A stretch of DNA of 64,000 nt from Andreprevotia chitinilytica DSM 18519 (lineage in GTDB: Bacteria; Pseudomonadota; Gammaproteobacteria; Burkholderiales; Chitinibacteraceae): positions 62,001 through 126,000 of the forward strand of contig NZ_JONM01000003.1 of NCBI RefSeq assembly GCF_000711875.1. The letters run 5' to 3'. Below are positions 32,343 through 41,847 of the stretch, piece by piece. The notes beneath the pieces were generated by a model, which was not told the DNA's origin, did no database searches, and was given only the letters and a program-made list of their open reading frames with translations. A program made the translations under genes and the position numbers. How positions within the stretch are numbered: the stretch's first letter is position 1; each line of letters starts with the position of its first letter.

Positions 32343-32416
32343 GAGGCAGGGAGCTGGCAGGAGGCGAAGACGCGATTATACGGCTTGCGGGTGACGGGTG
32401 ATCCGCCCACATGTTG

Positions 32417-32523
32417 TCCCCTCTCCCGCTTGCGGGAGAGGGTTAGGGAGAGGGGGGTGAAAAGGAAGCTGCCAGCGATGCAGCCCTCACCCCCGGCCCC
32501 TCTCCCACGCGTGGGAGAGGGGA
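32417..32523. repeat. Family B palindromic repeat upstream of mfd
   Basis: TCCCCTCTCCCGCTTGCGGG and GGGTTAGGGAGAGGGG face CAGCCCTCACCCCCGGCCCC and GTGGGAGAGGGG. It ends a few bases before the structured leader at 32541. Confidence 0.85.
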
Positions 32524-32540
32524 GTGTTTAGTCGATTGCT

Positions 32541-32826
32541 ACGGTTGCGTGGCTTGACCGGCCCCAAGCCGGTACGGAATACTTTGTGCGTTGTGTTTGA
32601 CGACGCAACACACGGGTTTGACGACCCGAACATAGAGGCGGACGACCGCTGCTCAGCGGTTTTTTATTGTCCGCAATACCCTTGGTACGTCCTCTTTGGC
32701 GGGCCTTGGCAGGGGCACCCTCGGGTGCGCCGGTTCCTCTATGCCGGTTCGTCAACCTTGCCTTGTGCCCGCCACCTTCGTTTGACGACGAAGTGGCGGT
32801 GTGAAACCGCAATAGAGGAGGCTCCC
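32541..32826 (+). ncRNA. Structured 5' leader RNA with repeated TTTGACGAC loops
   Basis: Three hairpins expose the same nine bases TTTGACGAC (32596, 32617, 32781) on different stems: GTTGTGT/ACGCAAC, GGGT/ACCC and a 12-bp stem CCGCCACCTTCGT/ACGAAGTGGCGG with one bulged C. An inner hairpin ACCGCTGCTCAGCGGT followed by TTTTTT (32645-32665) looks like an intrinsic terminator. It is enclosed by GCGGAC/GTCCGC. CCTCTAT (32736-32742) can pair with ATAGAGG at 32632 or at 32812, the latter touching the ribosome binding site. This looks like a cis-regulatory RNA for the following gene. The structure was worked out by eye. Confidence 0.65.
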
Positions 32827-33120
32827 ATGCCCAACGCACCTCAAGGTACGCCCGCACCACCAATCCCGCGTTACATTCCCGATTCCGGTCCGATTGGCCG
32901 CACGGCGGAAGACTTCGCCAGCTACGGCATGGACTGCGTGGACGAACTCGGCCGGCTGTTCCAAATCCTCGCCCGCATCGTGCCGCCTGGCTCCGCCGCG
33001 TATCAACTCACCCAAACGGGGATTTTTCTGGCGAACGAGCGGCGCTGTGCCATTAATATGGCGCGGGGATCGGCGAAGGAATTCAGGGAATTCAAGGTAA
33101 AGGAAAAAGACCGGAAGTAG
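32827..33120 (+). CDS. Small protein of unknown function controlled by a structured leader
   Basis: A 97-residue soluble protein beginning MPNAPQGTPAPPIPRYIPDS. A proline-rich N-terminus is followed by two probable amphipathic helices (SYGMDCVDELGRLFQILARI and QLTQTGIFLANERRCAINMA) and a lysine-rich tail. I recognise no family. The start is fixed by a strong AGAGGAGG ribosome binding site and by the leader that ends at it. A clear terminator follows 20 bases after the stop, so it is a single-gene unit. The lack of any neighbour in the operon gives no functional hint. Confidence 0.75.
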   Translation: MPNAPQGTPAPPIPRYIPDSGPIGRTAEDFASYGMDCVDELGRLFQILARIVPPGSAAYQLTQTGIFLANERRCAINMARGSAKEFREFKVKEKDRK

Positions 33121-33140
33121 TCGGTTTTTGGCAGGAATGG

Positions 33141-33169
33141 GCCAGCGCTTGAAAAGGCGCTGGCTTTTT
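33141..33169 (+). terminator. Terminator after the 97-residue gene
   Basis: GCCAGCGC-TTGAAAAG-GCGCTGGC followed by TTTTTA gives an 8-bp perfect stem and a U-tract. Confidence 0.9.
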
Positions 33170-33248: not shown

Positions 33249-33734
33249 ATGCGCTTTGCCGCCGAGATCGGCGTGCCCGAACACGTGATCGTCGATGCTG
33301 GCCATCCCAATGGCAAACGGATGCGCGACTACGGTGGTTTTGGCGATCCGGCCAGCCCCAAGAATGCCTTGCTGATCGAGACCGGGCAGCATTTCTCGAA
33401 GCGCAGCAGGGATGTGGCGCTGGATGCCGCGGGCCGCTTCCTGATCAAGACGGGCGTGCTGGATGTGGCCGACCTGGCGGGCTTTCTGCTACCCGCTGAA
33501 CCGGTAGCGCAACGCTTCTTCCGGGTTACGGAACCGGTCGTGGCAGGCACGATGGATTTCCAGTTCAGTGAAGACTGCCGGGGCATGGCATTGATCGAGC
33601 GTGCAGGCACCGTGATTGCTCGCGATCGCGCGCTGAAGATTGTTACCCCTTACGAAAATTGCACCATTGTCATGCCGTCGTTACGCCATCTTGGTCCGGG
33701 TGTGACCGTGATGCGGTTGGCGTATACGCTGTAA
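33249..33734 (+). pseudogene. 5'-truncated M14/AstE-AspA-like (succinylglutamate desuccinylase family) gene
   Basis: The 161 codons match only the C-terminal half of aspartoacylase/AstE-type M14 proteins: NGKRMRDYGGFGDPASPKNA, then LLIETGQHF, with the late beta-domain ending VTPYENCTIVMP. The N-terminal zinc-binding HxxE...H half is absent. In-frame sequence upstream is short and hits a stop at 33210, with AT-richer DNA before it. No ribosome binding site precedes the ATG. I read it as a remnant left by a deletion. A functional short protein is possible but would lack the active site. Confidence 0.75.
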
Positions 33735-36705: not shown

Positions 36706-36977
36706 CCCTGCCTGATCGGGATGTGCTTGCTTGTCCGGCCCCGCCAGCCGTCGGATCACGACGCGGTCGGTCTCTCCGCTGCTACATCCCGGCGATGGCT
36801 GCTGAGGCGGATGCCTGTTGCGTGACAACGGATCGGCACAGCAAACCCAAACTGGCCGCTACAAACAATCTGCGCGCAAGCTGCCGCGTTTCAAACAGCC
36901 GGCCTGATAAAACTCCGCTCGTCTTCCGTCTGCGAGGCGCTGATCGGCAGTTGATTTTTCCCCTCAAGCACAGAATC

Positions 36978-38861
36978 ATGAGCGCTTGTTTTTCTTCCAT
37001 TTCTTTTGCAGTAGCCGCTCATATTCTTTCTGGAATATTTACTGACGTGAAACGCCAATCCTGGCCCGAACTGGTCGCTCTGGCTGTCTTGTATGCGCTG
37101 GCCCAATGGGGGACGCGCTACATCGCGCCACCAGACCACTACAGCTCGCTCATTGCCCCAGCGGCAGGCGTGGCGCTGGCCGGCATGCTGCTGATCGGGC
37201 CGCGCTGCTGGCCGGTCATCGCGGCGACGGCATGGTTGCTGCCAGCCATGCAAGGCTTGCCGCCGCTGGCCGTGCTGCAATTGACGGTGATCGCCACGGT
37301 GCAGCCCTTGTTGGTGGCGAGCCTGTTGCCCGGCTTTGCGCCGGATGGCGAATTGCGGGTGCGCGACGGCATGCGGCTGGTGGCCACCGGCCCGTTGCTG
37401 GGGGCCGGGCTGGCGGCGATTTGCGGCTGTATTGTGCTCCGGCTGTTCAAGCCGGAGCTGATCGGCGCGGGTTTCGACCAATGGCTGCTGTGGTGGCTGG
37501 GCGATGCGCTCGGCATGCTCGCCATCGTGCCGATGAGCTTGGCGTTGCGCGCCGAGCGGCAAAGCATCCGCGCCAACTGGGTGATCGAGCTGACGCTGGT
37601 GGTGGCGGTGGCCGCCGCCAGTTCGATACTGATCTACCGTCGCATCGACCTTGGCTTTGCCGATCTGCAGTTCCTGCTGTTTCCGCTCATCATCTGGTCC
37701 GCCTTGCGCCTGGGGCACATCGGCAATGGCTGGGTGGTGCTGACGACCGGTGCGGTGGCGGCGGTGACGGTGAATGCCCGTGGCTACGTGAGCATCGTCG
37801 AGCTTTCCATCCTCTTGCTGCTGGTGAGCGTGGCCGTTACCGGCCTGTTGCTGGCGGCATCCAGCCGTGAAGAGGCGAAGGCCAGCAAGGCGGCGAAGCT
37901 GGCGGCGCAAGTGTTCGACAACGCCAGCGAAGGCATCGTGATCACCGATGCCAGCGCCAATATCGTGGCGGTCAATCCGGCGTTCAGCCGCATCACCGGT
38001 TTCCCGGCGGCCAAGGCCATCGGCCGGGTGTCGCGTATTTTCGATACCCACGGCAAGGTGCGTGAATTCAATCAGGACGTGCTGACCCAGCTGGATATCC
38101 ACGGCATGTGGCAGGGCGAAACGCTGGATCGGCGCAAGAACGGTGATATCTATTCGGCTTGGCTGTCGATCAGCGCGGTGCGCGATGACTACGGCGACAT
38201 CAGCAACTATGTTGGCGTGTTTTCCGACTACACCAGCCGCAAGGAAGCCGAGCAGCGTTTGCTGTTCATGGCCAGCCATGACCCGCTGACGGGGCTGCAC
38301 AACCGGGCGGCGATGAACGATGCGCTGGTGCGTGCCGTGCAGCGGGCCGAGCAGGAAAACCGCCAGCTGGCGCTGTTCTTCATCGATCTGGATGGCTTCA
38401 AGCCGATCAACGATACGCTGGGCCATGATGTGGGCGACGAGCTGCTCAAGGTGATCGCATTGCGGCTCAACAACGGTTTGAAAGAGGGTGATGTGATCGC
38501 CCGTTTGGGCGGCGATGAGTTCACGGTGCTGGTCGAAAATGTCCGTTACGACGACGAACTCGCCAGCATCGCGCAGCGCATGCTGACTGATCTGGCGCAG
38601 CCGGTGGTGCTGCGTGATCAGCCGCTGTCGGTCAGCGCCTCGATCGGCATCGGGCGCTATCCGCAGACAGCGCATGATCCGGTCGAGCTGCTCAAGCACG
38701 CAGATCTGGCGATGTATCAGGCCAAGCAGGGTGGCAAGAACAACTTCTGTTTTTATCAACCGCCGCGCTCGGTGCCACCTCTGGCGCAGCAATCAAGCGA
38801 CGTCGCGATGAAGCGGATGGCAGCGGCGCCGGCGCAACAGTCGCTGGATTCGCCGGGCTAA
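36978..38861 (+). CDS. MASE1-PAS-GGDEF membrane diguanylate cyclase
   Basis: About 627 residues. Eight or so N-terminal spans form a MASE1 sensory domain (IAPAAGVALAGMLLIGPRCW). A PAS domain follows (QVFDNASEGIVITDASANIV, then AVNPAFSRITGF). A complete GGDEF domain comes next, with LTGLHNRAAMNDAL, FFIDLDGFKPINDTLGHDVG and an intact RLGGDEF active site. It should make cyclic di-GMP. No EAL domain is present. The start is uncertain: ATG 36978 is used, GTG 37047 is possible, and the open frame reaches back to 36687 without a ribosome binding site. Confidence 0.9.
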   Translation: MSACFSSISFAVAAHILSGIFTDVKRQSWPELVALAVLYALAQWGTRYIAPPDHYSSLIAPAAGVALAGMLLIGPRCWPVIAATAWLLPAMQGLPPLAVLQLTVIATVQPLLVASLLPGFAPDGELRVRDGMRLVATGPLLGAGLAAICGCIVLRLFKPELIGAGFDQWLLWWLGDALGMLAIVPMSLALRAERQSIRANWVIELTLVVAVAAASSILIYRRIDLGFADLQFLLFPLIIWSALRLGHIGNGWVVLTTGAVAAVTVNARGYVSIVELSILLLLVSVAVTGLLLAASSREEAKASKAAKLAAQVFDNASEGIVITDASANIVAVNPAFSRITGFPAAKAIGRVSRIFDTHGKVREFNQDVLTQLDIHGMWQGETLDRRKNGDIYSAWLSISAVRDDYGDISNYVGVFSDYTSRKEAEQRLLFMASHDPLTGLHNRAAMNDALVRAVQRAEQENRQLALFFIDLDGFKPINDTLGHDVGDELLKVIALRLNNGLKEGDVIARLGGDEFTVLVENVRYDDELASIAQRMLTDLAQPVVLRDQPLSVSASIGIGRYPQTAHDPVELLKHADLAMYQAKQGGKNNFCFYQPPRSVPPLAQQSSDVAMKRMAAAPAQQSLDSPG

Positions 38862-40806: not shown

Positions 40807-41847
40807 TCACCAGTGCGATTTACGCTTTGCGGCCACTTTGGGCTGCGGCGTCGTCAAATCCTTGGTCTCGGTATACGCCTTGCGGATCTGATCCGCCAAG
40901 CCGGCGACGGCGCTCGCGTACAAGGTGCTCTTGTTGTAGCGGGTGAGCGCGTAGAAATTGGTGAAGCCGAGGTAATGGCGCGTGAAGCCCGGTTCGGTTT
41001 CCAGCGTGAACAGCACCGCTTGCTGCGCCGGGTCGGTTTCGGTCAGCGGTGTTACGCCTTTCTGCATCAGCGCTTCCACCGTGTAATGCAGATTGAATTT
41101 GTCCGCCAGCAAGGGCTCGATCTGGTCGCCGGCCACGTTCACCGGTTGCATGATCGCGCCGCCTTTTTGCCAGCCATAGGCGACGAGGAAGTTGGCAACG
41201 CTGGCCATGGCATCGACCGGTGTCCCCCAGATATCGCGATGGTGGTCGCCATTCCAGTCGACGGCGTATTTGCGAAAGCTCGACGGCATGAACTGAGGCC
41301 AACCCATCGCGCCGGCGTAGGAGCCCATGAAGGACAGCGGATCGGCGTTTTCTTCGCGCGCCAGGATCAGGAATTCGGTCAGCTCGTTCATGAAGAAATC
41401 AGCGCGGCGCGGGTAATCGAAGGCAATGGTGGTCAGCACATCCAGCACGCGGAAGCTGCCGGTGTTGCGGCCGTACAGGGTTTCGCAGCCGATGACAGCG
41501 GTGACGATCTCCGGCGGCACACCATAGCGTTCTTCGATGGCGTCGAGCTCGGTCTTGTAGCGGCGCATGAAACGCGCACCGCCAACGATGCGGGTCGGGT
41601 TGATGAAATTATCGCGGAACTGATACCACGGCCGGCTGGTGGAGGGCCGGTCGAGGATGTCCAGCACGTTTGGCTTCGTATTGACGCGCTTGAAGAGGGC
41701 GTTCAGCTCGGCACGATCGAAGCCTTGCTCGGATGAGACCTGGTTCAGGTATTCCTGCACTTCCGGGCGCGCCAGCAGGGCCTCGTCGGCGTGAGCAACA
41801 GAAAAGGGCAACAGCGCGAACAGCGCCGTGATGAGGGTTTTACGCAT
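40807..41847 (-). CDS. mltB: Lytic murein transglycosylase B
   Basis: A 346-residue periplasmic peptidoglycan lyase with a signal peptide (MRKTLITALFALLPFSVAHA) lacking a lipobox, so it is soluble. The catalytic Glu 122 lies in VIGCETLYGRNTG, and SFMGSYAGAMGWPQFMPSSF is the GH103 substrate-cleft signature. It releases 1,6-anhydromuropeptides. The gene is co-directional with hrcA, separated from it by a family E palindrome. Confidence 0.95.
   Translation of the reverse strand: MRKTLITALFALLPFSVAHADEALLARPEVQEYLNQVSSEQGFDRAELNALFKRVNTKPNVLDILDRPSTSRPWYQFRDNFINPTRIVGGARFMRRYKTELDAIEERYGVPPEIVTAVIGCETLYGRNTGSFRVLDVLTTIAFDYPRRADFFMNELTEFLILAREENADPLSFMGSYAGAMGWPQFMPSSFRKYAVDWNGDHHRDIWGTPVDAMASVANFLVAYGWQKGGAIMQPVNVAGDQIEPLLADKFNLHYTVEALMQKGVTPLTETDPAQQAVLFTLETEPGFTRHYLGFTNFYALTRYNKSTLYASAVAGLADQIRKAYTETKDLTTPQPKVAAKRKSHW

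Follow-up and report, generated by a model that had tools for sequence, protein, structure and literature searches.

The leader and its C4 antisense RNA

A unit lies between positions 32541 and 33166 of the window, by which the whole 64,000-nt stretch of DNA analysed is meant; all of its parts are on the + strand. A putative sigma70-like promoter (32554-32583; TTGACC, 18 nt, AATACT) was found by consensus scan. It is followed by hairpin H1 (GTTGTGTTTGACGACGCAAC, 32590-32609), by hairpin H2 (32613-32628), which carries target a1 (TTGACGA), the complement of C4 a', and by target b1 (CATAGAGG, 32631-32638), the complement of C4 b'. An intrinsic-terminator-like hairpin with the tract TTTTTT (32644-32665), recognized by scan and in the alignment of 29 units, lies between b1 and the C4 antisense RNA (32692-32779). 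Inside the C4 RNA, b' (CCTCTATG, 32736-32743) is an anti-Shine-Dalgarno segment complementary to both b1 and b2, mostly in an unpaired loop of the predicted fold, and a' (TCGTCAA, 32749-32755) is antisense to the TTGACGA loops. Hairpin H3 (32769-32799) presents target a2 (TTGACGA, 32782-32788), and the 3' strand of the C4 stem P1 is also part of the extended H3 stem. Target b2 together with the Shine-Dalgarno sequence (ATAGAGGAGG, 32812-32821) precedes the putative regulated gene of 97 aa (32827-33120, ATG at 32827), behind which the consensus scan placed a second intrinsic-terminator-like site (33139-33166). Long GC-rich inverted repeats (CCCTCTCCC...GGGAGAGGGG) occupy 32400-32530, just upstream of the unit; they are partly alike in the flanks of units L011 and L014 and gave weak miRNA matches under the cut-off.

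The original prediction had described this leader from its repeats, and those observations hold. TTTGACGAC occurs three times, at 32596, 32617 and 32781, each time on top of one of the hairpins H1, H2 and H3, and the terminator-like hairpin with six T residues lies between the second and third loop. A fourth copy is present at 40850 on the - strand; shuffles gave a whole-window expectation of 0.46 copies, and none of 100 shuffles reached four. CCTCTAT at 32736 faces two copies of ATAGAGG, at 32632 and 32812, the second of which continues into GGAGG at 32817. The two pairings are mutually exclusive, and the description as a regulatory RNA leader with an attenuator-like terminator is correct.

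An Rfam scan of the window gave a single match above its cut-off, the C4 antisense RNA (RF01695) at 32692-32779 (+), with a score of 64.9 bits against a cut-off of 45. The predicted fold of this segment had a minimum free energy of -50.7 kcal/mol (z -5.7) and corresponds to the C4 fold, in which a long closing stem is accompanied by two hairpins, one with a tetraloop and one with a loop that contains CCTCTAT; GG is visible in the sequence at the 5' end of stem P1. TCGTCAA lies in the unpaired segment after the b' hairpin and is exactly complementary to the TTGACGA that each of the three loops contains. Because the C4 RNA holds this a' segment at 32749, the TTTGACGAC loops are a-type targets, and the loops and the CCTCTAT/ATAGAGG pairings are therefore two halves of one antisense interaction. 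The window contains upstream complements of TCGTCAA and CCTCTATG and downstream complements of TCGTCAA and TCCTCTAT, which is the target arrangement of a C4 RNA. Judged by its sequence, which supports family membership, predicted fold and matched targets, the locus belongs to a known family, the C4 antisense RNAs, and its leader has P4-type architecture.

The leader of the satellite phage P4 (X51522, - strand) shares this layout. RF01695 scored 74.9 bits there, a' and b' were complementary to sites on both sides, and the order is the same as in the window, with a1, b1, terminator, C4, a2, b2 with the ribosome binding site, and a small gene. The P4 terminator, a hairpin with a T run, resembles that of the window by eye. 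The small protein is different, however, and the window copy has a second upstream a-type loop in H1. The upstream target region of P4 also matched isrK (RF01394) with 60.8 bits, whereas window positions 32593-32666 gave a weak match of 24.4 bits against a cut-off of 50. The C4 RNA of P1/P7 has, in the published descriptions by which it is likened to the window unit here, a' and b' segments antisense to an upstream site and to the ribosome binding site (passages in PMC5320573 and PMC12197685); in contrast to P1/P7, no ant gene was seen next to the window unit.

According to passages in PMC5320573, the C4 RNA of P1/P7 is made by RNase P, its b' covers the ribosome binding site and its a' sets the specificity. 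The CI RNA of P4 is reported to terminate transcription prematurely through its pairing with seqA and seqC (PMC4825925). From the P1 and P4 systems and the covariation described below, we infer a similar mechanism for the window. A single transcript would carry H1, the a1 hairpin, b1, the terminator, the C4 RNA, the a2 hairpin, b2 with the ribosome binding site, and the gene. The C4 RNA is probably excised from this transcript and would fold with a' and b' exposed. Other transcripts of the unit would then be targets of the C4 RNA in trans, with a' binding the TTGACGA loops and b' binding ATAGAGG. At a2 and b2, such pairing would hide the ribosome binding site, and at a1 and b1, next to the terminator, it would favour early termination; both would silence the 97-aa gene. 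Very probably, then, a C4 antisense RNA is embedded in the 5' leader of a single-gene transcription unit and silences this gene.

Matched targets in 29 host units

The host genome (5.15 Mb in 61 contigs) contained 29 matches to RF01695, 28 of them over the cut-off. The window unit and all 28 other host units were compared with their flanks, and the order of parts was identical in all 29. TTGACC was present at the corresponding promoter place in 27 units and absent from L021 and L036. A second upstream a-type site was found only in the window copy and L013, where the H1 loop is an a-type target; each of the other 27 units has one upstream a' complement, and its H1 loop is no such target. H1 and H2 align with the Rfam family c4-a1b1 (RF03163) and correspond to it in position and shape, with a covariance model score of 19 bits that lies below the cut-off of 46.7.

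Matches of at least 6 nt between the C4 RNA and the targets of its own unit were observed for a'-a1, a'-a2 and b'-b2 in 29/29 units each, and for b'-b1 in 22/29. Between different units, such matches were found in only 122 (a1), 112 (a2), 55 (b2) and 48 (b1) of 812 combinations, and none of 20,000 permutations reached any of the four observed own-match sums. Since b1 fails the 6-nt test in seven of the 29 units, pairing of b' with its upstream site may sometimes fail.

All 29 units were aligned with plain MAFFT, and covariation was counted. For the C4 stems together with a'-a2 and b'-b2, 91.2% of cells were paired, compared to 39-46% when the partners were slid. Both-sided changes were observed in 24 of 42 pairs, including five of seven a'-a2 positions. 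Compensatory changes in CCTCTAT/ATAGAGG, proposed as a check on the original prediction, were observed as well, since this b'-b2 pairing had changed on both sides at seven of its eight positions. The prediction had also held that the loop is the conserved part while the stems vary. This describes the three loops inside the window copy, but among the 29 paralogs the loops themselves vary and follow the a' of the C4 RNA. Homologous leaders with varying loops and uncompensated stems had been named as evidence against the proposal; variation of the loops was indeed seen among the homologs, but it parallels that of the antisense segment.

The proposed logic of a riboswitch, attenuator or protein-binding leader stands as far as a regulatory leader with an attenuator-like terminator is concerned, but in place of ligand or protein binding there is a C4 RNA between its own targets. 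A cis-regulatory leader that binds a ligand or protein through a conserved loop, as the three identical loops on differing stems of the window copy might suggest, was rejected as extremely improbable, since the loop sequence differs between paralogs and tracks the a' of the same unit instead of forming a binding core conserved independently of its antisense partner, and since the first hairpin has no site in 27/29 units.

Ten variants of a' and 18-19 of b' were found among the 29 units, in 29 distinct a'/b' combinations. Because chance gives 29 distinct combinations in 15-16% of shuffles, no selection for isolation or diversification can be claimed from this number, and selection for unique combinations was discarded as an explanation. 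At both a2 and b2, matches of at least 7 nt were found in 25/29 own and 1/812 cross pairs, and of at least 6 nt in 29/29 own and 8/812 cross pairs. Insulation between the units is therefore imperfect, given the shared a' and b' variants and the eight cross pairs at 6 nt. Still, each of the 29 units carries its own a'/b' "address", and silencing would thus be mostly of the unit's own gene.

A candidate inner switch was also seen. The 3' strand of the C4 stem P1 can alternatively pair downstream, extending the a2 hairpin (32769-32799). Over the 29 units, 83.8% of cells in the outer helix of this alternative and 87.2% overall were paired, compared to 38-58% when slid, and the outer helix had both-sided changes in three of six pairs. 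The number of both-sided pairs was matched by 74 of 500 shuffles and the number of further pair types by 211 of 500, while the remaining measures were never matched. This sequence signal is weaker than that of the main pairings, and the switch between P1 and the a2 hairpin is considered a candidate only. A pairing of CCTCT near 32690 with the ribosome binding site as an anti-Shine-Dalgarno, which appears in the minimum free energy fold, was dismissed because visual inspection showed no conservation of this segment among the paralogs.

Small proteins, surroundings and other genomes

The 97-aa protein of the window has a Pro-rich N-terminus and a predicted two-helix hairpin. The AlphaFold2 model had a mean pLDDT of 80.9, with low confidence for the Pro-rich start. 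No match was found in Pfam (E up to 1), NCBIfam or PHROGs (E up to 0.1), and none to viral structure models at E <=0.001; a helical hairpin is a generic shape. The paralogs fall into a one-gene class and a two-gene class (L010, L012, L016, L017 and others), in which the first gene ends a few bases inside the second and translational coupling is likely. In L032, both genes lie within one frame of 178 aa. The second protein of the two-gene class had a single weak PHROG match, to a family of unknown function (E 0.0094). Some genes look altered or broken, namely those of L031 (a 28-aa frame), L027 (48 aa) and L013, with ATA where the start codon is expected.

A simple Nei-Gojobori count, from which L027, L031 and L032 were excluded, gave a median dN/dS of 0.14 for 91 pairs of 14 first genes in the two-gene class and of 0.34 for 65 of 66 pairs of 12 genes in the one-gene class. 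The ratio was below 1 in every pair computed, and at the sequence level the small proteins look conserved. Median dS values of 0.8 and 1.3 argue against a very recent burst.

Relatives outside the host genome were few. When 300 genomes of the order were searched with a profile, four gave matches, namely the host's own genome, two of the same family and a weak one. Relatives sought by pattern gave 25 matches in genome contigs and 69 in viral contigs, none of which was confirmed, and the L025 paralog protein as a query found no match in phage or plasmid records. A further relative of the small proteins (L103, G000:C53:531-797) lies on a short contig with no listed RF01695 match.

The C4 family itself was found in 12 of 41 genomes searched, the host's own included, the two congeners having one and no match. 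In congener G002, DNA similarity ends at window position 32345, the start of mfd, and resumes 97 bases further on at window position 36935; in congener G001, it ends at 32343 and resumes after 824 bases at 37668. The window thus has about 4.5 kb, including the C4 unit, that are extra compared to both congeners. By eye, a GGDEF motif was recognized in the following gene. A frame of 161 aa (33249-33734), for which neither Pfam nor PHROGs gave a match, separates the C4 unit from a polysaccharide deacetylase-like gene and is part of the 4.5 kb absent from the congeners. Units L018, L022, L025 and L015 matched the two congeners with one flank or scattered pieces only.

From the flanks of the units, 52 open frames were picked mechanically, and 29 distinct proteins were scanned (20 against Pfam, 10 against PHROGs, one in both). 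Among these 29, no phage structural or integrase family was matched, so that linked phage genes, as in a prophage immunity region of P4 or P1 type, were not seen. PHROG matches in the flanks of L018 and L034 were to a "kinase" and to families without an assigned function. Pfam matches included glycoside hydrolases 18 and 8, RHS, CdiI, HipA_C and PIN, as well as a restriction-type protein with nSTAND3, beta-lactamase, YcaO, TraB and AzlC.

In a sample of the phylum, C4 RNAs were detected in 46 of 299 genomes, the own genome included; 14 candidates were scored per genome, and the counts per genome are hence lower bounds. Seven genomes chosen among the richest were rescored and contained 36, 24, 22, 15 (11 above cut-off), 14, 13 and 10 C4 RNAs. 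At 49 loci in other genomes, own matches were observed for a1 in 40, a2 in 43, b1 in 41 and b2 in 40, and for each type of site none of 10,000 permutations was as high.

The original prediction pointed to similar leaders before small genes in pseudomonads, and such leaders were found in pseudomonad-like genomes. The single-contig genome G270, presumably a Pseudomonas, carries 24 units (L175-L198). By the 6-nt test and after a crude automatic extraction, own matches were found at a2 in 23, a1 in 18, b2 in 15 and b1 in 11 of the 24; 14 own pairs and 6 of 552 cross pairs were matched at a2 and b2 together. Nine of ten proteins scanned, with their first 75 residues, matched DUF6124 or DUF3077 at E <=0.01, seven of them above the Pfam cut-off. 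These units resemble those of the host in their number, in their mostly small proteins and in the many Pro-rich starts, but the proteins have no detectable homology to the window proteins; with hhalign probabilities of 0.5% and 4.2%, homology of the window-type proteins to DUF3077 and DUF6124 was not supported. In the open-access full-text literature searched, DUF6124 was not found and DUF3077 occurred in a single paper.

Possible roles of the solitary C4 units

In phage P4, one leader of this kind was present in the stretch read; the host has 29 units dispersed over its chromosome. New here are the 29 C4 matches in one host chromosome, in self-matched units that lack a phage-gene context in the proteins scanned. 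What is unusual is the use of the C4 RNA, in many solitary, chromosomal, self-matched copies ahead of small proteins. Their likely role is the silencing of small, possibly toxic proteins, which would be harmful or conditional enough to need silencing.

The silencing of the 97-aa gene would gain a role if the unit worked like a type I toxin-antitoxin system, with the C4 RNA as RNA antitoxin and the small protein as a growth inhibitor. We consider this to have a little less than an even chance of being correct. As far as can be read from the DNA, the RNA and the transcript of its linked gene are complementary, as in type I systems. Further evidence comes from SymE toxins, of which 24 matches were found in eight of 60 genomes and 20 loci were scanned. 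C4 RNAs were present at four of these 20 loci. In three of the four, L139, L144 and L145 (genomes G268 and G588), SymE lies directly behind a C4 RNA whose a' and b' both have upstream and downstream matches. In the fourth, L130, a small frame lies between C4 and SymE, and b' is matched downstream only. SymE also follows a C4 RNA in L051 (G030), where the agreement is partial, a' having its match downstream only and b' upstream only. The low dN/dS across many copies and an Icd-like gene, resembling a cell-division inhibitor, behind the C4 RNA of L065 also argue for growth inhibition. On the other hand, 12 of the 20 SymE loci have sRNA-Xcc1 instead; C4 RNAs also precede RadC, Bro-N and HTH (HTH_35) genes, which are not classical toxins; the window protein belongs to no family in Pfam, NCBIfam or PHROGs; and its helical-hairpin model says nothing for toxicity. 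The RNA antitoxin of SymE in E. coli is SymR, which is different from C4. The variety of RNAs hints that the antitoxins of SymE loci are interchangeable. SymE and "C4 antisense" were not found together in the open-access full-text literature searched, and the SymE loci link a phage immunity RNA to toxins of this family.

Alternatively, the units could form an immunity repertoire, in which the C4 RNAs silence C4-controlled genes of incoming phages or satellites with the same a'/b' address and the small gene serves to keep the address. This is judged unlikely. It would agree with the specificity set by a' in P1/P7 (in the passages of PMC5320573 referred to above), with the different a'/b' combinations of all 29 units and with the absence of the 4.5 kb around the window unit from both congeners. 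However, chance alone yields as many combinations in the share of shuffles given above, the L025 protein had no counterpart in phage or plasmid records, and a pure RNA immunity has no need of the protein, which is conserved.

Decayed P4-like satellites or prophage remnants without a present function are improbable. C4 RNAs are known from phages, and the genes of L031, L027 and L013 look broken or altered, but the 29 distinct flanking proteins scanned, of 52 picks, contain neither phage structural proteins nor integrases, the dN/dS medians are low with all computed pairs below 1, and the a1, a2 and b2 matches persist in every unit.

Co-option of the C4 RNAs for unlinked host mRNAs is given a similarly low probability. 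It has been proposed for A. baumannii, where passages of PMC5320573 describe 21 C4-like RNAs in Group 1 with differing a' segments and suggest that they act on bacterial transcripts. To judge from these passages, this is the nearest published case, with many C4-like RNAs per chromosome and a variable a' as in the host. No cis targets are named in them, whereas the host units have matched targets and a linked small gene, and the targets of every host C4 RNA in its own leader argue against co-option.

Returning to silencing of linked genes, a wider reading is offered as a conjecture, possible but short of probable. C4 may mainly be a portable, re-addressable RNA silencer of bacterial chromosomes instead of a phage RNA, with dozens of largely insulated switches per genome, each restraining a small protein that is toxin-like or interferes with phages (the window family, DUF6124, DUF3077 or SymE). 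The whole would be either an array of toxins guarded by RNA or a heritable repertoire of immunity to phages and satellites that carry C4. DUF6124, DUF3077 and the window-type small proteins gain a likely regulator and therefore a testable role. About 29 natural antisense pairs occur in one cell, and these should be useful for studying how the specificity of RNA pairing evolves.
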